NCBI RefSeq assembly: GCF_013394855.1
Contig: NZ_JABMLK010000001.1
Span: 1,879,501-1,943,500 of the forward strand
Origin: Limnobaculum xujianqingii
Lineage (GTDB): Bacteria; Pseudomonadota; Gammaproteobacteria; Enterobacterales; Enterobacteriaceae
Direction of reading: 5' to 3'
DNA length: 64,000 bases
A program made the position numbers and the translations under genes. The notes beneath the pieces were generated by a model. That model saw only the letters and a program-made list of their open reading frames with translations, did no database searches and was not told where the DNA came from. Below are positions 50,984 to 61,733 of this stretch, in pieces (the first letter of the stretch is position 1; every line of letters starts with the position of its first letter).

Positions 50984-51583
50984 ATGATTTTGAGAAACCA
51001 ATATTATGTACTGCGTCATGGTCACAGTTTAGCCAATCAACAAAAGATCATCGTTAGTGATATTCAGCATGGGCAACATGCCTATGGCTTGTCTCCGGTA
51101 GGTATCAATCAGGTTATCCAAACGCTGGAAAACTGGCCTTACCCTATTCCGGATTTGATTTTTCATTCTGACTTTAAACGCACATCCGAAACCGCCGGAA
51201 TTGTTGCCGACTATTTTAATCGTCAGGCTAAACCAAGCGCAGCACTACGAGAACGTCATTTCGGTGAGTTTGAACTGAGGGATGACAGCCACTATCCATT
51301 AGTCTGGAAGCATGACGAAGATAATCTTACGGATTCATTTGCTCAGGTAGAGCAACTCAGCGCCATTTGTGAACGTGAAATGGCATTTATCCAAACGCTG
51401 GAACAGCAATACTCTCAGAAAAAGATTTTGCTGGTTGGTCATGGCGATCCCTTACAGATTCTGTTGACCCATTTCCAACAGAAGCCCCTGAGCCAGCATC
51501 GGGATTTAGCCCCACTAATGACCGCAGAAGTCAGAAAGTTAAACGGAGAATTACAATCACAGGCTGCATTGAGTAATGCCTGA
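50984..51583 (+). CDS. Histidine phosphatase family protein
   Basis: 199 residues of the phosphoglycerate mutase/histidine phosphatase fold: nucleophile YYVLRHGHSLANQQ, second Arg in HSDFKRTSETA, Glu in LRERHFGEFELRDD, and second His in LLVGHGDPLQ. It starts 68 bases after the second permease and is likely co-transcribed. A cytoplasmic phosphatase after a transporter suggests that the imported compound is a phosphate ester or that a phosphorylated product is processed; this is inference. Confidence 0.85.
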   Translation: MILRNQYYVLRHGHSLANQQKIIVSDIQHGQHAYGLSPVGINQVIQTLENWPYPIPDLIFHSDFKRTSETAGIVADYFNRQAKPSAALRERHFGEFELRDDSHYPLVWKHDEDNLTDSFAQVEQLSAICEREMAFIQTLEQQYSQKKILLVGHGDPLQILLTHFQQKPLSQHRDLAPLMTAEVRKLNGELQSQAALSNA

Positions 51584-51624
51584 CAGGACCGGATTAAATT
51601 AACAGTGATGGCAATAAAGCAATC

Positions 51625-51658
51625 AGGGTGATGAAAAGTTAACTCTCTTCACCACCCT
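51625..51658. terminator. Hairpin between the convergent phosphatase and lipoprotein genes
   Basis: AGGGTG (51625-51630) pairs with CACCCT (51653-51658), with inner TGAA/TTCA pairing; short T/A runs flank it on both sides. Likely a bidirectional terminator. Confidence 0.55.
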
Positions 51659-51716
51659 AAAATTTATTAAGCTAATTTGTTAAGCAAAATAGCTAACCAA
51701 TAATTTCAACCGTTAC

Positions 51717-52472
51717 CTAACGGCCATAGCGCTCAAAAATCTCTTTCGCTGCTGCATCATAAGCCTGTGCTTTCAGCTCCATAATCTGTTTCAGATCTTT
51801 TGAATCGCGATTGTAACGACCACTAACCGCTGAGTTTTCAAACACTTCCGGCGTAAACGTCACCCAGCGTCCGCTCAGCACATCAATCAACGCAACCCGC
51901 AGTACAATACGCATATGTTGGGTTTCATCAGGCAAAACCCCACCTACAAACGGTACCCAGGAAACCACTTTAGTTACTTCGTTTTCCGAACCGCTTTCTA
52001 ACTGACCCCAGTAAACAATGATCTTATCCTGACCGCCATTAGCCGCCGTTGAACGTAGCAGGCGTGGGTAATCGGTGGTCTCTTCCGTTGCTGGTTGTGA
52101 GCTGTAACCACGATAACGTTGAGAGTTCGGCGGAATACCGGAGAAAACCGCCACTGAATAATATTCTTTCAGTGCCTTTTGCATTTCAGCATCCGGCGTC
52201 ATGGCGCCAGACTGAATCAATAAAATGGAGGAATCCTTCGGCAAGCGGAAGGTATAACGGGAATTATTTAATGCAGTCTTAATATCCGCATCGCTGATAC
52301 CCTGCTTTGGCATAGCGCCCAGTACATCCTGATCGGATAATTCTCCTGCATAAAACTGGTTACGCCCATTATCTGCGTTGGAAATAGAACGCACCGAACA
52401 GCCTGAAATTATCAGTGAACCCAAAACCACCAGCATCAATAAGCGACACTGTTGTGTTATCCATTGTTTCAT
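51717..52472 (-). CDS. Lipoprotein of unknown function
   Basis: 251 residues with lipobox IISGC (Cys25), mature residue +2 Ser, so predicted for the outer membrane. The N-terminal third (DQDVLGAMPKQGISDADIKT) is followed by a domain with SSILLIQSGAMTPDAEMQKAL, KIIVYWGQLESGSE and a helical C-terminus ending AAAKEIFERYGR. I do not recognise the family. The open frame runs 51 codons upstream into a repeat element, but AGGGAT fits the ATG at 52472. Confidence 0.75.
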   Translation of the reverse strand: MKQWITQQCRLLMLVVLGSLIISGCSVRSISNADNGRNQFYAGELSDQDVLGAMPKQGISDADIKTALNNSRYTFRLPKDSSILLIQSGAMTPDAEMQKALKEYYSVAVFSGIPPNSQRYRGYSSQPATEETTDYPRLLRSTAANGGQDKIIVYWGQLESGSENEVTKVVSWVPFVGGVLPDETQHMRIVLRVALIDVLSGRWVTFTPEVFENSAVSGRYNRDSKDLKQIMELKAQAYDAAAKEIFERYGR

Positions 52473-52522
52473 TGTTATCCCTAATTGGTTTTTATAGCTA
52501 AAAATAATTAAGTTTGGGGGAG

Positions 52523-52770
52523 ATTTCGTCCACAAACAGTCTCGTGTATGAATAAACCTTAGCGCAGGTGGCCGAGCAGGAGGCGCTAAGGCGAGCGCCT
52601 CCTGCACCTCCACGCCTTCGCACACGAATCCAGGTCGCTACGCGACTTCCCTCCGCCATCGTTCGGGCTTACGCACCGGCGCAGAGCCGCTCCCTACGTC
52701 GCTGCGCCTCGACTGGCATCCATGCCAGTCGTGCTACCCTCTCTCAGTTGTCGGCTGAATTCCAGTGCTC
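52523..52770 (+). repeat. Multi-hairpin repeat element, copy A
   Basis: This and the inverted copy B (59608-59935) share TTTCGTCCAC at the left end, GTGGCCG, CGCCTTCGCACACGAAT, CGGGCTTACGCACCGGCGCA, GTCGCTGCGCCTCG, CGTGCTACCCTCT and GAATTCCAGTGCTC at the right end. Hairpins are at 52577-52604 (11-bp perfect stem), 52634-52646 and 52711-52730 (9-bp stem). Past 52770 a purine-rich tail (GAAAGGTCAAAACCAAAGGA) resembles the tail of copy B. It carries no real gene; open frames through it are by-products. Confidence 0.85.
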
Positions 52771-52815
52771 AATAGAAAGGTCAAAACCAAAGGACACGAC
52801 CTCAATTCAAAAAAC

Positions 52816-54885
52816 CTACTTCCTCGCGGCAAGCGATCGCAACAACACCCCAATCGTAGTCCCATTATGCAACAGGGCACTCAGCGTCGGGGATAGCCGT
52901 CCCATCGCTGCTGCTAACATAATAGCGCTGTTAATCCACTCGGTTAGTTTGATGTTGCTGTTAACCAGTTTCATTGCATCAACCGACAGCTCACGAGCCG
53001 TGACTACGCCATGCAGGGAGTCTTGCAGCAGTACGGCATCCGCCGCCTGTTGAGCAAGTTCTGTGCTTTGGTTCATTGCCAGGCCAACATTTGCCTGAGT
53101 CAGTACCGGTGCATCATTAACGCCATCGCCAACAAACATCACCCGGCAGCCTTGTTCCTGCAATGACTGAACCACGCTAACTTTACTTTCCGGCGTTGCT
53201 TCAGCAAAGAACTGATCAATGCCCAGATCTTTAGCCATTTGCTCGGCCTTATGCTGCTTATCGCCGGTTAACAGAATGACATTCTTAATACCCAGCTCGC
53301 GCAGTTGGCTTATCACCTCAGCAGCTTCATCGCGCACATTATCCTGCAAGCCAATCATACCGACCAGTTGTTCATTAAGACTAATAAATAGCAGATGGCG
53401 GCCCTGCTCTTCCAACTCTTCGATCTGAGTCTGGAAAGGAGAGAAATCGATGTGGTAATGCTCTCGCAGGAAGTGGCGGCTACCAATAACCATACGGTTA
53501 CCGTCAAGCTCGGAAATCAATCCGTGGGCAATGACATATTCCACTTCACCATGATTAATGTGTGGTAGCTCGTGCTGCTGAGCAGCGCTGACTACCGCGC
53601 GCGCCAGAGGATGATTGCTATGCTCTTCTACCGAAGCAGCGATTGCCAGCAAGCGTTTAGCCCAGGTATGTTTCGGGTCAAAACTCACTACATCGGTAAC
53701 CAACATATCACCGTATGTCAACGTACCGGTTTTATCGAACACCACAGTATCAATGTCTGCCAGTTGCTCAATGGCACGGCCTCCTTTGAGCAATAGCCCG
53801 GAGGTTGCCGCTTTGTACATAACCGATTTAAACGCAATTGGCGTACTCAGCTTTAAGGCACAAGAATAATCGACTAAGAATACTGAGGCCAGACGATTCC
53901 AGTCGCGAGTCAGTGCAAATACGCCAGCACCAGCCCCTAGAGTAATCGCTACCCGACGGTCAGCCATTCTTTGGGTAACCTGCTGGGTTTCGCTACGTTG
54001 ACCGAGTGACTCGGTAATAAAGCGACGAATATTCGCCGTTGAAGACTCATCACCTACCCGCTCAGCGCGTACCGCAATGTTACCGTCCTGAACTTGCGTT
54101 CCGGCAAATACCCAGGCCCCTGCTTCACGACGTACAGGCACACTTTCCCCTGTCATGGATGCCTGATTGATTAAACCAATACCGCGCAATACGCTACCGT
54201 CGGCAGGAATACTGTCGCCAGGTCCCAGTAACATGACATCACCGTTTACCAGCTCTTCCGCATTGATTTCCTCACTTTCGCCATCGCGCTCAACCCAAAC
54301 TGAGTGGTATTGCGGCTGCATCAGCTCAGACAGCAACTCATCGGAGTGACGGCTGGTTTCTTGCTCAAAATATTCTCCCAGCGTCAGCAATGACTGGGTC
54401 AACATTGCCGTCCGATAATCACCGCGGGCAATCGACAGGCTCAGCGCCAAAGCGTCCAGCACTTCAACTTTCAGCTCTCGCTGGCACAGTGACTCAACGC
54501 CTTCGGCAATAGTAGGCGCCATTAAGGCAATCGCCGGTAATGCAGACCAGCGCTTAGGTAAAAACTGAGTTGCAGCCAAACCCGCCAGATTTAACAGATT
54601 ATCACCACCGCAATATTCCGCTTCGTACTCGCTGTCGGTGGCTGAATCCCAATCAATGGCATTCAGCTGTGTTAACAGCTTTTCCGCATCGGTTTTATTG
54701 GTGTGATAGGTTAGTACGGCAGAAGCCGCTGCCGGGCGCAGGCGCACCGTTTTCACTCCGGTGAAAGAGAGCAGATGGGTTTTAAGCCATCCTGCAACGT
54801 CTGGTTGCTCCCGCAACTGAACAATGCGCACTCTCAGTCGACCAGGAAGTTGGTGGACTGGCTTAACGGAATATGAATGGGTCAT
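52816..54885 (-). CDS. P1B-type metal ATPase with SCA motif (P1B-6/FezB-like)
   Basis: 689 residues. An N-terminal HMA_2-like domain (PVHQLPGRLRVRIV) lacks CxxC. The actuator loop has TGES (245-248); catalytic Asp384 is in VVFDKTGTLTYG; HP is at 425-426 (EEHSNHPLARA); the hinge is GDGVNDAP (586-593). The metal-site helix reads VDYSCALKLSTPIAF (341-346) instead of the CPC of Cu pumps or SPC of Co pumps. That SCA form I associate with the P1B-6 group, which includes FezB of ferrosomes. It is last in the cluster, eight bases after the small coiled-coil gene. Confidence 0.85.
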   Translation of the reverse strand: MTHSYSVKPVHQLPGRLRVRIVQLREQPDVAGWLKTHLLSFTGVKTVRLRPAAASAVLTYHTNKTDAEKLLTQLNAIDWDSATDSEYEAEYCGGDNLLNLAGLAATQFLPKRWSALPAIALMAPTIAEGVESLCQRELKVEVLDALALSLSIARGDYRTAMLTQSLLTLGEYFEQETSRHSDELLSELMQPQYHSVWVERDGESEEINAEELVNGDVMLLGPGDSIPADGSVLRGIGLINQASMTGESVPVRREAGAWVFAGTQVQDGNIAVRAERVGDESSTANIRRFITESLGQRSETQQVTQRMADRRVAITLGAGAGVFALTRDWNRLASVFLVDYSCALKLSTPIAFKSVMYKAATSGLLLKGGRAIEQLADIDTVVFDKTGTLTYGDMLVTDVVSFDPKHTWAKRLLAIAASVEEHSNHPLARAVVSAAQQHELPHINHGEVEYVIAHGLISELDGNRMVIGSRHFLREHYHIDFSPFQTQIEELEEQGRHLLFISLNEQLVGMIGLQDNVRDEAAEVISQLRELGIKNVILLTGDKQHKAEQMAKDLGIDQFFAEATPESKVSVVQSLQEQGCRVMFVGDGVNDAPVLTQANVGLAMNQSTELAQQAADAVLLQDSLHGVVTARELSVDAMKLVNSNIKLTEWINSAIMLAAAMGRLSPTLSALLHNGTTIGVLLRSLAARK

Positions 54886-54893
54886 CGGGGCAG

Positions 54894-55205
54894 TTACTCG
54901 CTGTCCTGATCTTTTTCGCGATAGTAATCCAGCTCGGCCTGCACGTCTGCCAGACGCTCTTTCAGCTCTTCCACTTCACCACGAACTGCACCCCAGGCTT
55001 TATTAGCCGTTGCACTAATACTTTTTTGTACATTGCGGTTAGACAGCAGATAAGCAATTGCCGCTCCGGCAACAATACCGGTAATCAGATGAGCCCGACT
55101 ATTGTCCGCACGATAAGGGGTTTGCGGCGCTGACTGATCCACGGGATAAGGCGCATAAGGATTGTAGTAAGGGTTATAGTAGTAAGGATTATTCGGCTGT
55201 TTCAT
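54894..55205 (-). CDS. Small Tyr/Pro-rich membrane protein with coiled coil (YtxH-like)
   Basis: 103 residues: a Tyr/Asn/Pro-rich N-terminus (YYYNPYYNPYAPYPVD), one hydrophobic glycine-rich segment (LITGIVAGAAIAYLLS), then an amphipathic helix ending in a charged coiled coil (EVEELKERLADVQAELDYY). The start overlaps the preceding MamC-like gene by 17 bases. No enzymatic motif is seen. The architecture suggests a membrane scaffold or curvature protein serving the ATPase compartment; this is inference. Confidence 0.75.
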   Translation of the reverse strand: MKQPNNPYYYNPYYNPYAPYPVDQSAPQTPYRADNSRAHLITGIVAGAAIAYLLSNRNVQKSISATANKAWGAVRGEVEELKERLADVQAELDYYREKDQDSE

Positions 55206-55503
55206 CTACGCCTCGCTTATTCATTGAGTCTAATAGGTACATTCCGGCAACGCCTGCGCTGAGTACCGTCAATAATGTCAGTACCGGACGGCCTGCGGTG
55301 GCGTTGGCTACCGTCATGGCAGCGCCACTCACTAAACCGGCTTTAGTGGCATCAATCAGAACTTTACTGGTTGCCTGTTCCAGCGTTTTCTCACCACGCT
55401 GATACTGACGCCACTGCTCAACGCCAGAAGCTGTTGCACCTACCAGAGCACCGGCAATCAGCGCCCGACTGGCAGGGTTCATGCGGTCGCTGTTATTACT
55501 CAT
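55189..55503 (-). CDS. MamC-like hydrophobic protein
   Basis: 104 residues with two glycine/alanine-rich membrane segments (ALIAGALVGATASGVE and LTLLTVLSAGVAGMYLLDSM) and a polar stretch between (RQYQRGEKTLEQATSKVLID). The layout and several positions recall MamC/Mms13 of magnetosomes, which has the same two-helix hairpin with a short charged loop. Remote similarity by eye only. Start ATG at 55503 overlaps the previous stop by eight bases (ATGAGTAA). It need not imply magnetite; MamC-like proteins may serve other iron-rich compartments. Confidence 0.65.
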   Translation of the reverse strand: MSNNSDRMNPASRALIAGALVGATASGVEQWRQYQRGEKTLEQATSKVLIDATKAGLVSGAAMTVANATAGRPVLTLLTVLSAGVAGMYLLDSMNKRGVDETAE

Positions 55504-56134
55504 CCGCTTTCTCCTGCTCACGATGGCGTTCTACCGACTCCTGAAAGCCTTCTTTACCAGCCTGAACCGTATCACGGAAAATAGCACCACTGGTCATTAC
55601 ACTCTCTTTTACGCTTTCCGCTGTGGTTTCTGCCTTCTCTTTCACTTTGCTACCACCACTTTTCAGCATGTCGCCAGCATTAGCAAAAGTTTGTAGCAGA
55701 GTATTACGTACGCTTTCATTACCTAAAATTAGCGCTGCCGCAGCGCCGATCATTGCGCCTTTCCAAAACTCTTTATCATCAACACCAATAGTACTGATGA
55801 TATTTTTAAATAATCCAGCCTGCTCTCCCATCAAGCCTTCAACCATGCCCTGCGCCTGTCCGCTCCAGTCAAAACCCGGGGCCATTTGCTGAGGCGCTGG
55901 CTGTTGAAACTGAGGGGGAAACTGTTGGTACTGTGGTGGCATTGGGTAGCCCATAGGCGGCTGACCACACATTGGATTCCACATTGGAGGATGAGGTGGC
56001 CACATCATCTGCGGCATTGGTTGCCCCTGCTGCTGAGGATAGGGAGGATAATAAGGATAACCGTAAGGCCCGTAAGGTGGCATCCCTTGATATTCAGGGA
56101 TTTCCTGATCGTTACTCTTTTTGTCTTTTCCCAT
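55496..56134 (-). CDS. Proline-rich membrane-associated protein with amphipathic C-terminus
   Basis: 212 residues. About 80 N-terminal residues are Pro/Tyr/Gln/Met-rich (for example PPYGPYGYPYYPPYPQQQGQ), probably disordered. Then comes a hydrophobic segment (KGAMIGAAAALILGNESVR) and a long amphipathic helix with KEKAETTAESVKESVMTSG, reminiscent of YtxH or apolipoprotein-like repeats. It contains one Met-Trp-Pro-Pro block and a single Cys. The likely role is scaffold or coat of a membrane compartment (inference). It lies between the HMA_2 gene and the MamC-like gene. Confidence 0.7.
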   Translation of the reverse strand: MGKDKKSNDQEIPEYQGMPPYGPYGYPYYPPYPQQQGQPMPQMMWPPHPPMWNPMCGQPPMGYPMPPQYQQFPPQFQQPAPQQMAPGFDWSGQAQGMVEGLMGEQAGLFKNIISTIGVDDKEFWKGAMIGAAAALILGNESVRNTLLQTFANAGDMLKSGGSKVKEKAETTAESVKESVMTSGAIFRDTVQAGKEGFQESVERHREQEKADE

Positions 56135-56148
56135 CTTCAGTTCCTCAC

Positions 56149-56481
56149 TTATTTAGACTCTGGCGGAGAGATAATTGGCAGAATTTCAGTTAACGCTTGC
56201 TCTGCAACCCGATCGTCATCACCAAACAGCTGTTCCAGTAACTTTGGCGGCAAACGTTTAGCGTCATACTCTAATAATAGACTTCCGGTTGCACTATTAA
56301 GGGTATAGCTACGTAAACAATTATCTTTGCCACAAAGCTCTTCTAATGCAGATAACTTACTTTTACTCAGTCCGGCCACCAGTTTATTGGTAAAACGCAA
56401 TCTGATGCGACCAGGGATATGGTGGGCAAGTTCAACGAAACGGCGTAGCGCCATTAACCCACTAAAACTATCAGAACTCAT
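56149..56481 (-). CDS. HMA_2-like small metal-domain protein
   Basis: 110 residues from the ATG at 56481 (AGGATG upstream). The segment VELAHHIPGRIRLRF matches the HPGR(I/L)R motif of the ATPase N-terminus and of the divergent gene at 56744, indicating one domain family (heavy-metal-associated type 2). Two Cys occur in LEELCGKDNCLRSY. It is the first gene of the minus-strand cluster. It may deliver metal to, or regulate, the ATPase, as proposed for FezC-type proteins (inference). Confidence 0.75.
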   Translation of the reverse strand: MSSDSFSGLMALRRFVELAHHIPGRIRLRFTNKLVAGLSKSKLSALEELCGKDNCLRSYTLNSATGSLLLEYDAKRLPPKLLEQLFGDDDRVAEQALTEILPIISPPESK

Positions 56482-56707
56482 TTCACATCCTAAAAAATCA
56501 ACCATTCTGCCGTAGCAGAAATAAGGTGCCATATTAGTTACGGCTATCATATGACGTGACCTGATGATTTAAAACACTTAAACACACTTGTTTGGAAGTA
56601 AATCGAACTTATGCCGGAAAAGAGAAAAAACGCAGCATAAAGAAGTAGAGATATTTCGCAGAAATTGGTTAATAACAGTACTGGACAGACCTCAAACATT
56701 AATGTAA

Positions 56708-56730
56708 ATTATTCTCGTTATCTTTATCAT
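56708..56730 (+). promoter_or_regulatory. Possible Fur box between the divergent HMA_2 genes
   Basis: Read on the minus strand, GATAAAGATAACGAGAATA gives tandem GATAA hexamers, about 13 of 19 consensus matches. It lies 14 bases before the ATG at 56744 and could silence both divergent units in iron-rich cells. Counted by eye; weaker than the other two Fur-like sites in this window. Confidence 0.4.
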
Positions 56731-56743
56731 TCAGGTGGCCACC

Positions 56744-57112
56744 ATGAGTAGTCCATATGTTCATCAGACACAAAACCGTGTTCGCATTCGCTCTGATTAT
56801 ATTCAACAGCACGCAGCTGAAGTAACAGATTTGATTGCAAAACTGGAGTTAGTGCCGGGAATCAAAGAGATTCAATACCGTCGCTACGCGGGTTCTGTGG
56901 CAATTCGTTTTGACAGCAAAGTAATCAGCGCCGCTGCTCTGCTGGAAACGGTAGAAAGTTATGGCTGGCTGGAAAACAGCGAAGAGCGCGACTTCATTAA
57001 TAATGCGGTGCGTCTGGGAGCTAAAACCTTACTGAAAGGTATTGCCTTAACTACGCTGAAGCGTACCTTAGGCGGTTCGTTGGTGAGTGCTGTAGCAGCC
57101 ATAGCCAGATAA
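56744..57112 (+). CDS. HMA_2-like protein, divergent to the P-type ATPase cluster
   Basis: 122 residues: SSPYVHQTQNRVRIRSDYIQ resembles the HMA_2 start, then AEVTDLIAKLELVPGIKEIQ, and a C-terminal hydrophobic region (LKGIALTTLKRTLGGSLVSA). Lacks Cys pairs. An in-frame GTG lies three codons upstream; CAGGTGG fits the ATG at 56744. It is transcribed away from the cluster across a 262-base shared promoter region and is followed by its own terminator. Confidence 0.75.
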   Translation: MSSPYVHQTQNRVRIRSDYIQQHAAEVTDLIAKLELVPGIKEIQYRRYAGSVAIRFDSKVISAAALLETVESYGWLENSEERDFINNAVRLGAKTLLKGIALTTLKRTLGGSLVSAVAAIAR

Positions 57113-57147
57113 AATAACGCATTCTGTTGCCTCTATTATTATTATAT

Positions 57148-57178
57148 AAGGGTCCACATTAATAAACGTGGGCCCTTT
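57148..57178 (+). terminator. Terminator of the divergent HMA_2 gene
   Basis: GGGTCCAC pairs with GTGGGCCC (one G-T pair), followed by TTTAATTT, 35 bases after the stop. Confidence 0.75.
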
Positions 57179-57349
57179 AATTTAATCAAACTGCCCCTCT
57201 CAGCCCTCTTAACCTTTTTATTAGCGCTTAGCCGATTATCAGATAAAGAAACTGCGCCTCCCGACACAGTCCTTTGCTGAACAGGTAGATATAATTGAGA
57301 CCTACGTATAAATAACTCCCAACGATTTGAAAAATAAGAAGGACAAAAT

Positions 57350-58186
57350 ATGAAAGTAGGCGTTATCGGTGCAGGTGCTATGGGTGCAGGCATTGCTCAG
57401 GTGTTTGCTGCTGCGGAAGGCTTTACGGTAGTTCTCGCTGATATTAAGCAAGAATTCGCAGATAAGGGAAAAAACAACATCATTACTTCACTAAACAAAT
57501 TAGTGGATAAAGATAAAATGACGGCAGACAGAGCCAAGGCCATCACCGCCAACATTACTCCCGGACTGCCCGAAAATGTTTTTGACTGCGACCTCATCAT
57601 TGAGGCTATCGTCGAAAATATAGAGGTTAAACGCCAGCTTTTTAACAATCTGAAAAGCATTTGCCAACCTGACGCCATTTTCGCCTCTAATACTTCTTCA
57701 CTCTCTATTACTGAACTGAGTGCCGGACTGGATCGTCAGGTTATTGGACTACACTTTTTTAACCCAGCTCCCGTGATGGCGCTGGTAGAAATCGTCGTGG
57801 GTTTAGGTACCACCGATGAGATGGTCAGCAAAATGCAGGAGATCGTTCAGCAGGTAGGTAAAGTCGCTGTTATCTCTAAAGATGCGCCGGGCTTTATCGT
57901 CAATCGCGTGCTGATTCCTATGGTTAATGAAGCCATTGGCATCTATGCCGATGGTACCGCCAGCGCGGAAGATATCGACACGGCAATGAAGCTGGGTGCC
58001 AATCATCCTATGGGGCCGCTGGCTTTGGGCGACTTAATTGGTCTGGATGTTTGTCTTGCCATTATGGAAGTACTTTATTCAGAAACCGGCGACTCAAAAT
58101 ATCGCCCTCATATTCTGTTGCGTAAGATGGTCAGAGGTGGAGCATTGGGGAGAAAGAGTAAGAAAGGATTTTATAGCTACGGCTGA
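57350..58186 (+). CDS. 3-hydroxybutyryl-CoA dehydrogenase
   Basis: 278 residues, single-module (S)-3-hydroxyacyl-CoA dehydrogenase. NAD motif VGVIGAGAMGAGIAQVFA; catalytic Ser/His in ASNTSSLSIT and GLHFFNPAPVMALVE; Glu/Asn in KDAPGFIVNRVLIPMVNEA; C-terminal NHPMGPLALGDLIGLD. It matches Hbd/PaaH-type enzymes acting on short chains. AGAAGGA precedes the ATG. No thiolase, crotonase or butyryl-CoA gene adjoins, so the pathway (short-chain acyl-CoA use, or fermentation) is open. Confidence 0.9.
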   Translation: MKVGVIGAGAMGAGIAQVFAAAEGFTVVLADIKQEFADKGKNNIITSLNKLVDKDKMTADRAKAITANITPGLPENVFDCDLIIEAIVENIEVKRQLFNNLKSICQPDAIFASNTSSLSITELSAGLDRQVIGLHFFNPAPVMALVEIVVGLGTTDEMVSKMQEIVQQVGKVAVISKDAPGFIVNRVLIPMVNEAIGIYADGTASAEDIDTAMKLGANHPMGPLALGDLIGLDVCLAIMEVLYSETGDSKYRPHILLRKMVRGGALGRKSKKGFYSYG

Positions 58187-58201
58187 TATCAAACTCCAGC
58201 A

Positions 58202-58247
58202 GACAGAGGCCCGATCGACCATGTCAATCGAGCCTCTGTGTTTTTTA
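58202..58247 (+). terminator. Terminator of the hydroxybutyryl-CoA dehydrogenase gene
   Basis: ACAGAGGC..CGAT pairs with ATCG..GCCTCTGT, followed by TTTTTT, starting 16 bases after the stop. Confidence 0.85.
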
Positions 58248-58309
58248 TAGCAGTATGACTATAGCAGTACTACCTCAATACAAATCTCATCGGCAGTAGA
58301 GTATCGATA

Positions 58310-58744
58310 TTAAGCAAAACGTTTAGCTGCGCACTGGCAAATACCGCCGCTTTTAGCCGGGCAACGTTTACAAGGTGGAGATTTAAAGGGCAAACGCAAA
58401 ATTGCCGGAGGTGCCATACTATTAGGCTGTATGCGCATATTACCGACACTTGCGGTTTTCGCTGGCTGACGTGATATTGGCGTGTTATAGCCTCCGTGAT
58501 CGAACCAGTCCAATAGCGGCTTCAATGGTTTTGAAACTTCAACCAGTACATTGCCCATCACTTCCTGAGAGAGTTCACTCCAGATTGAATCTGTGGATTC
58601 TGGTTTAGCGATCCGGGGATGTATATTTGGTAAAACCGCAGGACGAACAAGATTCTGAAGCGCACGATCCCCCGCCTTATTTTTGCTTCCGTGCTTAGAC
58701 GCTTTTTTACGTAATTTTTTCAGTGCCTTAAGGGCTGATGACAT
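58310..58744 (-). CDS. Small Cys-rich protein of unknown function, probably Fur-regulated
   Basis: 144 residues from the ATG at 58744 (a TTG six codons earlier is also open). Basic N-terminal helix (SSALKALKKLRKKASKHGSK), a central acidic part, and a C-terminal cluster PPCKRCPAKSGGICQCAAKR with four Cys (CxxC-x8-CxC by spacing), which could hold zinc or an Fe-S centre. Not a family I recognise. The strong Fur box just upstream suggests expression under iron shortage. Confidence 0.65.
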   Translation of the reverse strand: MSSALKALKKLRKKASKHGSKNKAGDRALQNLVRPAVLPNIHPRIAKPESTDSIWSELSQEVMGNVLVEVSKPLKPLLDWFDHGGYNTPISRQPAKTASVGNMRIQPNSMAPPAILRLPFKSPPCKRCPAKSGGICQCAAKRFA

Positions 58745-58764
58745 AAAATAGTGTGCCAGCAAAC

Positions 58765-58783
58765 AATAATGAGAATGATTATC
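58765..58783 (-). promoter_or_regulatory. Fur box upstream of the Cys-rich gene
   Basis: Read on the minus strand, GATAATCATTCTCATTATT matches 15 of 19 bases of GATAATGATAATCATTATC. It ends 20 bases before the ATG of the Cys-rich gene, and could also act on the divergent yecF-like gene at 58900. Confidence 0.72.
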
Positions 58784-58899
58784 TATATTATTAAGCAGTT
58801 TTCAATACTTTTCCACCAACAGATGCTCACGCCTGACGCAATACTTTGCTACCATATGTCCAAATTTAAATTGTCACATATATCGACACGGGACTAGTT

Positions 58900-59133
58900 A
58901 TGAACAATATCGATTTTCCAACCAGCGCGACACCGGAAGAGATGGCCAGAGAAATTTCCGGTCTGAAAGCAATTCTGACATTAATGCTGATCACCATGGG
59001 TCAGGCGGACGCGGGAAAAGTGATTCTGAAAATGGAACGACTGATTGCCGATCATCCGGATATGGCGGAAGCCGAAGCGTTTAAAGGTATCGTTCAGCAA
59101 ATGCGGCAGGCGTATCGTCAGGAAACGTGCTGA
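58900..59133 (+). CDS. yecF: DUF2594 protein YecF
   Basis: 77 residues, all-helical, with LKAILTLMLITMGQADAGKV and LKMERLI as in E. coli YecF ([20 protein letters not shown]). Function unknown. In E. coli it neighbours sdiA; here it stands alone between two unrelated genes. It has its own terminator (59149-59182). Confidence 0.88.
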   Translation: MNNIDFPTSATPEEMAREISGLKAILTLMLITMGQADAGKVILKMERLIADHPDMAEAEAFKGIVQQMRQAYRQETC

Positions 59134-59148
59134 TAGTTTTTTGTTTGG

Positions 59149-59182
59149 AAGCCCCGCGTTAGGTCTAACGCGGGGCTTTTTG
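59149..59182 (+). terminator. Terminator of yecF
   Basis: AAGCCCCGCGTTA pairs with TAACGCGGGGCTT around GGTC, followed by TTTT, 16 bases after the stop. Confidence 0.9.
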
Positions 59183-59359
59183 GTATTGTGTGTGGTGGGG
59201 GGGGTCAGAGGGATTGGCGTCTGAGGATATTCCGACTGAAAGCACGCCGATTATGCATCTTTTACTATTAGCTTCAGTGAATATTCCGGCCGTAAAAGCA
59301 ATTTACTCATAATTATCGTTGTGCTCGGCCGGTAGATCATCTGTACTTGAGATCTGAGT

Positions 59360-59466
59360 GCGTCGGGCCTAGCCCGCCTAGGGGCAGTTACAAAACACCT
59401 TTGGTGTTTTGCCCTTCGGGCCAGCGCTTGCGCCAAGTCGACCCCAACGGCGGCCTCTCCCGACGA
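59360..59466. repeat. Multi-hairpin element C
   Basis: A closed structure: outer stem GTCGGG (59362-59367) / CCCGAC (59459-59464), and inside it a run of small hairpins: CGGGC-CTA-GCCCG; CAAAACACC-TTT-GGTGTTTTG (59391-59411); GCCC-TTC-GGGC; GCGC-TT-GCGC. The style is the same as that of copies A and B, but the sequence is different. It has no plausible coding role. With copy B it fills the 812-base yecF-alx gap. Confidence 0.7.
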
Positions 59467-59539
59467 TTAGCTTTGGTTATAAGACCTACGAGCAACAGCA
59501 ACAATTATTCAAGGTAATACCCTTAATCCTAAATTATCT

Positions 59540-59607
59540 TATGACCTTCCTCTGTTGCCCTTTATCTTTTGACCTTCATTCTTTGGTCTTCGTCCTTTGA
59601 CCTTCAA
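59540..59607. repeat. Degenerate CTTTGACCTTC tandem repeat
   Basis: ATGACCTTCC, TTTTGACCTTCATT, TTTGGTCTTCGTCC and TTTGACCTTCAAG follow each other at intervals of about 16-20 bases, giving a pyrimidine-biased plus strand. A shorter version borders copy A (52771-52801). It therefore seems to belong to the end of the repeat element. Confidence 0.6.
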
Positions 59608-59935
59608 GAGCACTGGAATTCAGCTGACGACTGAAAGAGGGTAGCACGACCAGCAGGGATGCTGGGCGAGGCGCAGCGACGCCGGACAAAATTGCAGGAG
59701 CAATTTTGAACAGCACGAAGTGCTGGCCCAAAGGGCCGAGCCTCATGGATGAGGCGAGTACTCCGGCTCTGCGCCGGTGCGTAAGCCCGAATGAAGAAGA
59801 AAGGGAGTCGCCTAAGCGACCTGAATTCGTGTGCGAAGGCGCGGGGGGTGCAGGGGGGCATTCGCCCTAATGCCCCCTGCACGGCCACTCGCACAAATGT
59901 TCATCTAAACGCTGCACTATTTAGTGGACGAAACC
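59608..59935 (-). repeat. Multi-hairpin repeat element, copy B (inverted relative to A)
   Basis: Copy of element A in opposite orientation, longer by about 75 bases. The extra part is a string of four hairpins: GCCTCAT/ATGAGGC (59740-59755), GGCCC/GGGCC (59725-59737), AGCAC/GTGCT (59712-59724) and CAAAATTGC/GCAATTTTG (59687-59708). Shared hairpins are at 59650-59665, 59807-59820 and 59848-59882; their loops and stems differ from A with pairing kept. It ends 11 bases before the alx stop. Confidence 0.85.
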
Positions 59936-59945
59936 AACACTAAAC

Positions 59946-60935
59946 TCAATGCTTTTCATTATCTTGGCGATCATCCTCCAGACGATCATTCCTGTAATTC
60001 ACCCACCCATTAATCCCCAACGTCACCGCCAAAATCCCTCCAACGGTTCCCAGCGAAATCGCTATCGGAATATGATAAAAATCAACGATCAGCATCTTGA
60101 TGCCAATAAACACCAATATCACCGCCAGGCCATATTTCAACATAGAGAAGCGTTCCGCTACGTTAACCAGCAGGAAGTACATTGCCCGCAGGCCCAGAAT
60201 GGCAAACAGGTTTGATGTGAGTACAATAAAGGGGTCGGTAGTTACTGCGAAGATTGCCGGAATACTGTCTACGGCAAAAACAACATCACTGATTTCTACC
60301 AGAATCAGAACCAGAAACAGCGGTGTGGCAAACAGTACGCCGTTGCGACGGGTAAAGAAACGCTCTCCTTCCATATTATCGGTCATGCGAATATGGCTAC
60401 GGATCCATTTCACCAGCGGTTTATCACCAATATTGGATTCATCATCTTCGTTGACCAACGCCATCTTGATACCGGTGAACAACAGGAAGGCACCAAACAC
60501 ATACAATATCCAACTAAATTCAGAAATCAGCCAGCTACCGGTAAAGATCATGACGGCACGCAGAACGATGGCACCCAACACGCCATATACCAGCACACGC
60601 CGTTGTATAGCTACAGGAACAGAGAAATAGCTAAATATCATCAGCCAGACAAACACATTATCTACCGCCAGCGCTTTTTCAATTAGGTAGCCGGTGATAA
60701 AAGCCAGTGCCTGAGCATCAGCCACCTGCTGACCGGCGGTGTCTTTCAGATACCACCATAAACCAAGCGCAAATAGTAAAGAGAGCGTAATCCAGACGAA
60801 TGACCAGGCTGCAGCCTGTTTAAAAGACATCGCTCCGCCCTTCTTCTTGCCCTGTCCAAACAGGTCAATCATTAGCATCACGACAACGATAAGTGTAAAA
60901 CTACCCCACAATAACGGGGTTCCAATAGTATTCAT
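59946..60935 (-). CDS. alx: TerC-family membrane protein Alx
   Basis: 329 residues, about nine membrane segments. [16 protein letters not shown] and [20 protein letters not shown] carry the acidic residues of the two TerC repeats; [20 protein letters not shown] follows. It matches E. coli Alx (321 residues), an alkaline-pH-induced protein linked to Mn homeostasis. The upstream leader contains the yybP-ykoY riboswitch, consistent with Mn control. The C-terminal tail is charged ([14 protein letters not shown]). Confidence 0.95.
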
Positions 60936-61034
60936 TTGGGGTCTCCTCTGGCCTCTTATCTCAGCCTGCTGTTTAAAACTATAGTTGCTTTAAACAACTT
61001 CACTAACAGATACAGAAACCTAACCTTCAGACAT

Positions 61035-61072
61035 AAAAAAACGGCCAACGTCGGAAGACGCAGAGCCGCTGT
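61035..61072 (-). terminator. Riboswitch-controlled terminator of alx
   Basis: On the minus strand, CGGCTCTGCGTC-TTCC-GACGTTGGCCG is followed by seven T's, about 15 bases downstream of the aptamer and 100 bases before the alx start. It lies where a regulated transcription stop is expected. Confidence 0.75.
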
Positions 61073-61079
61073 TTTAGCT

Positions 61080-61205
61080 AGCTATAAGCGCACCTCGCCT
61101 TCCGGCAAGGTCTCACTTACAACCGAAGGTTGCCTGGTAACCGGATGTATATGCATACATCGTATTGACGATTAGCCAGCTTGGAAGTTACTCCCCTTTG
61201 CAAAG
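61080..61205 (-). promoter_or_regulatory. yybP-ykoY (Mn2+/pH) riboswitch of alx
   Basis: Minus-strand transcript carries the two conserved loops: AAAGGGGAGTAAC (61186-61200) and GAGACCTTGCC...GGCGAGGTGCGC (about 61085-61115), with stems between them, the signature of the PRE element of E. coli alx. In E. coli this RNA turns translation on with Mn2+ and alkaline pH. Here a terminator also follows. Confidence 0.92.
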
Positions 61206-61733
61206 CAAAAGATACGTATTCTCGTTACCAGAGTCAAGAGGGGGAAAAATTTAAATGATGCAAAAGCAGATTAAACGCTTCGAGTGGGCTGGTAATAAAT
61301 GAACCGATAACCTGATGAATAATATTTTCTTATTTAATTATATTATTTATTTGCACTTATTTTCTTATTGGTTCTATAATAAATATGTCCGATAGAAATA
61401 TAATAAAGTATCAACAATGAGCTGTTAAAAAATTAGAAATATTAAATATCAATTTTGATTCTTTATATATTTTCGACTTAATAAAAACCTCACAAAAAGT
61501 ATCATTACTGGTCTGTAACCCCTCCCCTGAAAATAAAATATCAATCCTGATTCTTTAAAACTTTTTATTCAAAAATGGTTTTGTGATCGAGATTGAGCAT
61601 TATTCTATTTTAATTTGTTAAAGTTCCTGCCGTGACGAACCCATACATTATTTCTTAATAAAAAGTTAGTTTATCACTGGTATTAATTTAATACCGCGGG
61701 ACCGTTTTAATAAAAATTTACTTTGGGGTATTT
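61206..61733. other. AT-rich promoter region of alx and sdaC
   Basis: About 530 bases without genes. It holds the alx promoter (minus) and a long leader for sdaC (plus). TGTGATCGAGATTGAGC at 61582-61598 is a half-match to a CRP site, reasonable for sdaC. GGGGTA at 61724-61729 is close to the sdaC ATG. Confidence 0.4.

Follow-up and report, generated by a model that had tools for sequence, protein, structure and literature searches.

Here we describe a gene cluster of Limnobaculum xujianqingii (genome size 4.76 Mb) that we regard, with a probability of roughly 0.85, as a gammaproteobacterial fez (ferrosome) gene cluster, controlled by Fur and encoding an SCA-type ATPase that would pump Fe(II) into a vesicle. 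The cluster lies at positions 52816–57112 of the window, by which we mean the whole 64,000-nucleotide stretch analysed (contig NZ_JABMLK010000001.1, positions 1,879,501 to 1,943,500). Ferrosomes, small iron stores enclosed by a membrane, have been shown in few organisms; known fez operons are fezABC of Desulfovibrio magneticus, fezXAB of Clostridioides difficile and a six-gene operon of Shewanella putrefaciens. Grant and colleagues reportedly described, in 2022, six-gene fez operons in both Rhodopseudomonas palustris and S. putrefaciens that are said to be sufficient in foreign hosts. For R. palustris CGA009, PMC12016538 attributes ferrosomes to six fez genes, RPA2333-2338.

The cluster comprises a five-gene operon and a divergent gene, to which we add a seventh gene and two Fur-box-like sites (window positions; aa, amino acids; ORF, open reading frame):

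52816–54885, minus strand: FezB-type P1B ATPase, 689 aa, with an HMA_2-like N-terminus carrying PGRLRVRI, the metal helix DYSCALKLS, DKTGT and the last helix LLHNGTT
54894–55205, minus strand: Pro/Tyr-rich protein, 103 aa (PY103), with a hydrophobic GAAIAYLLSN stretch, a separate EELKERLADVQAE stretch and a weak YtxH match
55189–55503, minus strand: MamC-related protein, 104 aa from the conserved ATG; alternative GTG start at 55521
55496–56134, minus strand: Pro/Tyr/Met/Gln-rich protein, 212 aa (PY212), containing DDKEFWKGAMIGAAAAL
56149–56481, minus strand: upstream HMA_2 protein with AHHIPGRIRLR, 110 aa from the conserved ATG; start in the ORF list at 56550
56704–56722, unstranded: weak Fur-box-like site in the divergent promoter, 14/19 to the consensus
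56744–57112, plus strand: divergent HMA_2 protein with HQTQNRVRIR; alternative GTG start at 56735
58310–58744, minus strand: seventh gene, Cys-tail protein, 144 aa, C-terminus SPPCKRCPA..GGICQCAAKRFA, its four Cys kept in 14/14 aligned sequences
58765–58783, unstranded: strong Fur box of the Cys-tail gene, 16/19, 20 nt ahead of the ATG

All six ORFs on which a first-pass annotation of this DNA had based its ferrosome proposal are present, but the Cys-tail gene and its Fur box had been missed. Translation probably begins at the conserved starts 56481 (upstream HMA_2), 55503 (MamC-related) and 56744 (divergent HMA_2). With these starts, the genes overlap (by 8 and 17 nt) at two of the four operon junctions and are spaced 14 and 8 nt apart at the remaining two; overlaps of 8–17 bases had been described earlier. 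The former labels of two-helix for the MamC-related protein and single-span for the Pro/Tyr-rich proteins are insecure, as a Kyte-Doolittle mean above 1.6 is reached by one 19-residue segment in the MamC-related protein and by none in the Pro/Tyr-rich proteins.

The ATPase has P-type domains. Of the NCBIfam models for P-type ATPases, it passes the cut-offs of the heavy-metal and 'cadmium family' ones (367.5 bits against 313.5 for the latter) and stays below that of the copper one. Its N-terminus matches HMA_2 (PF19991) at 23.3 bits, below the gathering score of 30. Among 103 ATPase ORFs, a set in which some loci overlap and the window copy is counted twice, the metal helix reads D-Y/F-S/A-C-A in 85 (DYACA in 2), CPC in 16 and LACV in 2. 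A quick 84-row tree, with some long branches, separated 68 non-CPC rows from 16 CPC rows (SH-aLRT 99) and placed the gammaproteobacterial ATPases in one clade, adjoining Campylobacterota and a pair of loci, L039 and L041 (L and G numbers denote loci and genomes). Copies or near-copies (L001, L003, L005, L006, L026) had been dropped from this tree and a distant group (L054–L103) subsampled to 26. The same split was recovered in a careful 19-row tree that included later loci (14 non-CPC and 5 CPC rows, support 100/99). The window ATPase lacks the CPC helix and stands outside the CPC clade, the features of Cu and Zn P1B ATPases; a grouping with those pumps, which would have counted against the first-pass proposal, was seen in neither tree. 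We take the SCA metal helix to be a mark of P1B-6 ATPases and FezB to be one of them. A review table gives Fe(II) as the P1B-6 substrate. The ATPases of L181 and L182 carry DFSCGIK in the metal helix, yet fall inside the same non-CPC clade of the 19-row tree, and the last-helix LHNG-T motif is kept in L179–L182. Within the genus, the window ATPase is 96–98% identical to its counterparts in G001–G003 and 98% identical to the Limnobaculum allomyrinae copy (L026).

Several individual ATPases had features of their own. L039 and L041 each encode, beside the SCA enzyme, a second ATPase that combines a PGRMRVRV N-terminus with a CPC metal helix (L039:2986-5214 and L041:3073-5301). The ATPase on a contig named Serratia marcescens (L037) groups with that of Symbiopectobacterium L036, which may reflect a wrong contig name or a transfer of the cluster. 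Membrane helices are unusually weak in some of these enzymes: the number of 19-residue segments at a Kyte-Doolittle mean of at least 1.3 is one in each of the ATPases of the window, L029, L033 and L040, whereas L069 and L090 have 3 and three CPC pumps have 5 to 10.

The small proteins around the ATPase are of recognizable types. The two HMA_2 proteins score 34.9 and 33.6 bits against PF19991 (gathering score 30), confirming their initial assignment. An alignment of 20 HMA_2 proteins contains no CxxC motif and has one His and two Arg in 20/20, a pattern that would suit a hard metal or an adaptor role. The resemblance of the 104-aa protein to MamC is real but distant. Its match to the MamC model (NCBIfam NF038051; E 1.9e-4) reaches 21.7 of the 100 bits required, and it is not filed as MamC; at E<=0.01 the model matches 20 of 23 family members, the best at 2.4e-9. 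An AlphaFold2 model of this protein from a 20-row alignment was too poor for use (mean pLDDT 51). In six Campylobacterota loci (L045, L046, L049, L051, L053 and L080) the MamC-like and PY103-like proteins are fused into one ORF, which suggests that the two act together. Both are found in 13 of 14 Campylobacterota loci by profile searches, some members having been used in the profiles; the exception is L052, whose contig starts inside the ATPase. In several lineages the orthologues of PY212 contain runs of His or repeats of MHP, which are possible iron-binding stretches. The MHP repeats form runs in the PY212 counterparts of L151–L153, whose lengths differ (206, 262 and 278 aa) between close genomes.

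MamC is used as a magnetosome marker, according to PMC12713370. We considered and set aside a magnetosome assignment from the MamC-like gene itself, as the MamC model matches 3 of 369 gammaproteobacterial genomes, and neither mam genes nor a P1B ATPase were recognised in the 9–14 kb read around the matching genes. MamC-like genes occur in the Gammaproteobacteria L110, L111, L112 and L114, where the stretch read showed no recognisable mam or P1B ATPase gene; the copies in L110 and L112 score above the MamC cut-off. Near the MamC-like gene of L113 is a 957-aa ATPase with Cation_ATPase N and C domains, which is not of the P1B type.

The cluster is conserved well beyond Limnobaculum. We confirmed 479 relatives and kept the best 80, to which counts out of 80 loci refer. 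Sixteen of these are from Enterobacterales (Budvicia, Pragia, Limnobaculum, Leminorella, Hafnia, Shimwellia, Kluyvera, Symbiopectobacterium and the one Serratia-named contig), and in 14 of them every one of the five partner families is present in frames that look intact, a conservation beyond chance. Two Symbiopectobacterium records, L038 and L047, show broken cluster frames. The kept relatives outside the order come from Campylobacterota, Desulfovibrio, deltaproteobacterial bins, Spirochaetes, Clostridia and Sutterellaceae-type bins. In a Shewanella-like genus the ATPase scored 801–818 bits in 5 of 60 genomes and at most 274 bits in the remainder; L150, from this genus, has the entire set in the order of the window, and MtrB was found in both genomes tested. 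A Proteobacteria sample gave a match at E<=1e-85 in 8 of 398 genomes, and a blastn search with the operon against 20,395 E. coli records gave none.

Among the wider Proteobacteria, L179 has six genes in the order HMA, PY, PY103, ATPase, HMA, FezC-like, and L180 has the same order minus a called PY103; we guess that genomes of this six-gene type are alphaproteobacterial. L182 reads feoA, feoB, PY, PY103, ATPase, HMA, and L181 reads PY, ATPase, HMA, while L183 is cut by a contig end. Such operons are also carried by an Azospirillum replicon (L184) and by the 133-kb Arcobacter sp. plasmid p133_LEO_107 (CP134847; L185), both with DYSCALKLA in the ATPase. On the plasmid, genes for ChaN and a TonB receptor neighbour an operon of DUF2202, MamC-like, PY-like, ATPase and FezC-like genes, and the N-terminal part of the ATPase is a separate ORF. 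The six-gene set of L179 can be compared with the six fez genes to which PMC12016538 attributes the ferrosomes of R. palustris.

The Cys-tail protein has no Pfam match at E<=0.1 and is a candidate extra ferrosome part. Among 295 genomes of the order, PY212 was found in 10 and the Cys-tail protein in 24, including all 10 with PY212. The nine strong Cys-tail matches (E<=1e-12) all fall within the PY212 genomes; the match in the tenth, G424, is weaker (2e-5) and lies beside the cluster, and the other 14 are weak (6e-7 to 6e-4) and mostly cover the Cys tail alone. In eight of nine gammaproteobacterial loci mapped (L104, L150–L153 and L156–L158) the Cys-tail gene adjoins the divergent HMA_2 gene, in L154 it is about 5 kb away, and in the window a 3-hydroxyacyl-CoA dehydrogenase gene stands between the two. 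The gene is not universal: within the flanks examined, it occurs in only L024, L025, L026 and L028 of the 16 Enterobacterales loci, and no Cys-tail gene was found in the 15 kb read around the cluster of G013, a genome outside the 295-genome sample.

The promoters suggest control by Fur. The Fur box of the window Cys-tail gene was equalled by 0 of 300 shuffles, a strong box (15–16/19) precedes the gene in all five Budviciaceae loci where it was found, and none of 43 control upstream stretches in the window reached 15/19. The divergent promoter matches the 15-mer Fur palindrome at 14/14 in L150, from the Shewanella-like genus, and at 13/14 in L151. We scored 17 divergent promoters picked to avoid most near-copies (omitted were L026, L032, L034, L035, L037, L038, L047, L152, L153, L155 and L159), which are nevertheless not independent because they are still related. 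The best 19-mer Fur score had p<=0.05 in 10 of the 17 (150 shuffles each). Over the 17 promoters the Fur palindrome totalled 184, more than any other member of a set of 120 permuted palindromes that includes it (mean 156.2, sd 6.1). An FNR-type pattern scored alongside gave its best scores in the Symbiopectobacterium-type loci. In C. difficile, the fez genes (FezA/FezB) are Fur-repressed according to a review.

Iron genes recur around the ATPase in other lineages. By single-linkage ORF clustering, labelled by eye and open to stray members, an FeoB-type group was found in 14/80 loci, an FeoA-type group in 8/80 and Fur-type groups in 5 and 4 loci, and Pfam confirmed every member scanned (FeoB in L085, L040 and L182, FeoA in L040 and L039, Fur in L040, L077 and L095). 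L040 runs fur, feoA, feoB, HMA_2, a ferritin-like gene, a weakly YtxH-like gene, MamC-like, PY-like and ATPase. A ferritin-like DUF2202 protein by the ATPase was matched at E 3.5e-10. A further small-protein group occurs in 21/80 loci, mostly Clostridia and Spirochaetes with some deltaproteobacteria, and matched DUF6110 in all three members scanned (best E 8.1e-40). FezC, described in a paper as a DUF4405-like ferrosome cytochrome, is part of some fez clusters and is not known to be needed by every one. Eight of the 14 Campylobacterota loci, and L039 as well, have FezC-like genes, whose products have two invariant His; five of these nine had helped to build the model. Such genes also occur in L179, L180 and L185 and beside the gammaproteobacterial cluster of L158. 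A tenth match to the model is an unrelated-looking ORF in control locus L013 (E 0.003), and an HMA–FezC fusion in L184 was seen by eye only and not reported by the model.

By homology to ferrosome systems, on which the vesicle, the mineral and the direction of transport rest, we propose that the SCA-type P1B ATPase moves cytoplasmic Fe(II) into a vesicle bounded by membrane or an invagination of the inner membrane. The His- and Arg-bearing HMA_2 proteins may hand iron over or aid recruitment of the pump, and a role in coating or shaping the vesicle and its mineral may fall to the MamC-related and Pro/Tyr-rich proteins. Through Fur, iron shortage would switch on the five-gene operon together with the divergent HMA_2 and Cys-tail genes, so that returning iron could be captured. 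An operon with small hydrophobic and HMA-like partners around a FezB-type ATPase, by which a fez cluster is recognised, is present. The FezB-type ATPase family, the iron neighbours and the Fur boxes thus support the ferrosome reading of the first-pass annotation, which had suggested an iron-storage organelle system in Enterobacterales. Its further suggestion of components not described in model clusters is unproven and could not be upheld because of the six-gene fez operons attributed to R. palustris and S. putrefaciens; the same set also occurs in the Shewanella-like genomes. A more specific idea, to which we give slightly less than even odds, is that gammaproteobacterial ferrosomes use both a MamC-related protein (fused to its partner in some Campylobacterota) and a four-cysteine protein under Fur control, which would have been overlooked as a ferrosome component because its gene is a gene away in some genomes. 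If so, ferrosomes and magnetosomes would share a mineral- or membrane-shaping protein by descent, and Enterobacterales close to E. coli would offer genetically tractable hosts for the organelle.

Several results weigh against the ferrosome assignment. The FezB-type label comes from motif and clade rather than from alignment with the named FezB proteins of D. magneticus, R. palustris, S. putrefaciens and C. difficile. In L179 and L180, the relatives of six-gene type, the ATPases carry DFACGIK rather than DYSCALK, although they fall in the same clade of the 19-row tree. FezC-like genes were not found in 17 of 18 gammaproteobacterial genomes searched, the window genome included, and were present in G547. 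No feo gene was recognised by eye among the ORFs at 48.5–61 kb of the window, and the window cluster lacks DUF6110, the ATPase neighbour in Clostridia and Spirochaetes. The site in the window divergent promoter is weak (14/19, p 0.033; 10/14, p 0.24), and the Cys-tail gene has no clear Fur box in nine other gammaproteobacterial loci (0/9 at p<0.01, 2 at p 0.02–0.03). MamC-like genes are also found outside any such cluster.

The same genes could instead encode a plasma-membrane Fe(II) efflux pump with helpers that gather it in patches, serving detoxification rather than storage and forming no vesicle. Metal export from the cell is the usual task of P1B ATPases, the Fe(II) listed for P1B-6 would fit such a pump, and the DUF6110 neighbours weakly match DUF1490 (E 0.017 and 0.055), the PacL family, which scaffolds mycobacterial efflux ATPases. 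However, several structural proteins and FezC-like partners recur across phyla, and the Fur boxes point to expression in iron shortage, which is the wrong sign for an efflux pump; we therefore consider efflux unlikely. Less probable still is that the pump or compartment serves a divalent metal other than iron (Zn, Co, Mn or Ni): the score above the cadmium-family cut-off speaks for it, but the metal helix lacks CPC and the neighbours that recur across phyla are iron genes.

Least of all do we expect that the ferrosome cluster of this lineage is a relic, idle or in decay. The broken frames in the two Symbiopectobacterium loci, the missing FezC-like gene and the weak promoter box of the window could be read in that way, but the window frames are all open, the genus-mate ATPases are as close as 96–98%, and the Fur box of the Cys-tail gene is conserved in Budviciaceae.

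We also considered whether the region is a recent mobile island. This was rejected, since terC, DUF2594 and Cys-tail genes accompany the cluster in four of five Budviciaceae loci (not L027) and the inverted repeats flanking the region, at 52600–52770 and 59608–59850, belong to a dispersed element of about 175 bp that matches the genome at 44 places. Over 51000–61500, Rfam gave no match at the gathering score. A promoter scan found no excess of promoter-like sites (4 compared with 5.7 in shuffles) and was not used.

Among the matches listed in open-licence literature we found no report of ferrosomes in Enterobacterales, which is weak evidence of novelty. If the assignment is correct, a compact, conserved cluster in easily grown members of the order (Pragia, Budvicia, Hafnia and Kluyvera) would permit direct assembly genetics, in which membrane bending, mineral nucleation and recruitment of the pump could each be traced to a protein. 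One concrete candidate for a new ferrosome part is the Cys-tail gene, preceded by its Fur box, and the Arcobacter plasmid shows that a plasmid location is possible for such a set. The relationship to MamC provides a testable bridge to magnetosome biology.

Compared with known systems, the window ATPase has the P1B architecture and the DKTGT and TGE motifs of CopA and ZntA, but those pumps have a CPC metal helix and form a separate clade. The pairing of a small membrane protein with a P1B ATPase resembles that of PacL/DUF1490 with mycobacterial metal-efflux P-ATPases, although the match is weak and confined to DUF6110 neighbours in other phyla. The MamC-related protein falls far below the MamC cut-off and no magnetosome gene was recognised in the cluster, yet it is homologous to MamC, small, Gly/Ala-rich and located beside a presumed iron-mineral system. 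The window genome differs from known fez operons in having no FezC-like gene; its MamC-related and Cys-tail proteins may be a further difference, unless the S. putrefaciens operon shares them. Like those operons, the window set groups small hydrophobic and HMA_2 proteins around a single FezB-type P1B ATPase, has predicted Fur boxes and, in its relatives, stands in the context of iron genes.

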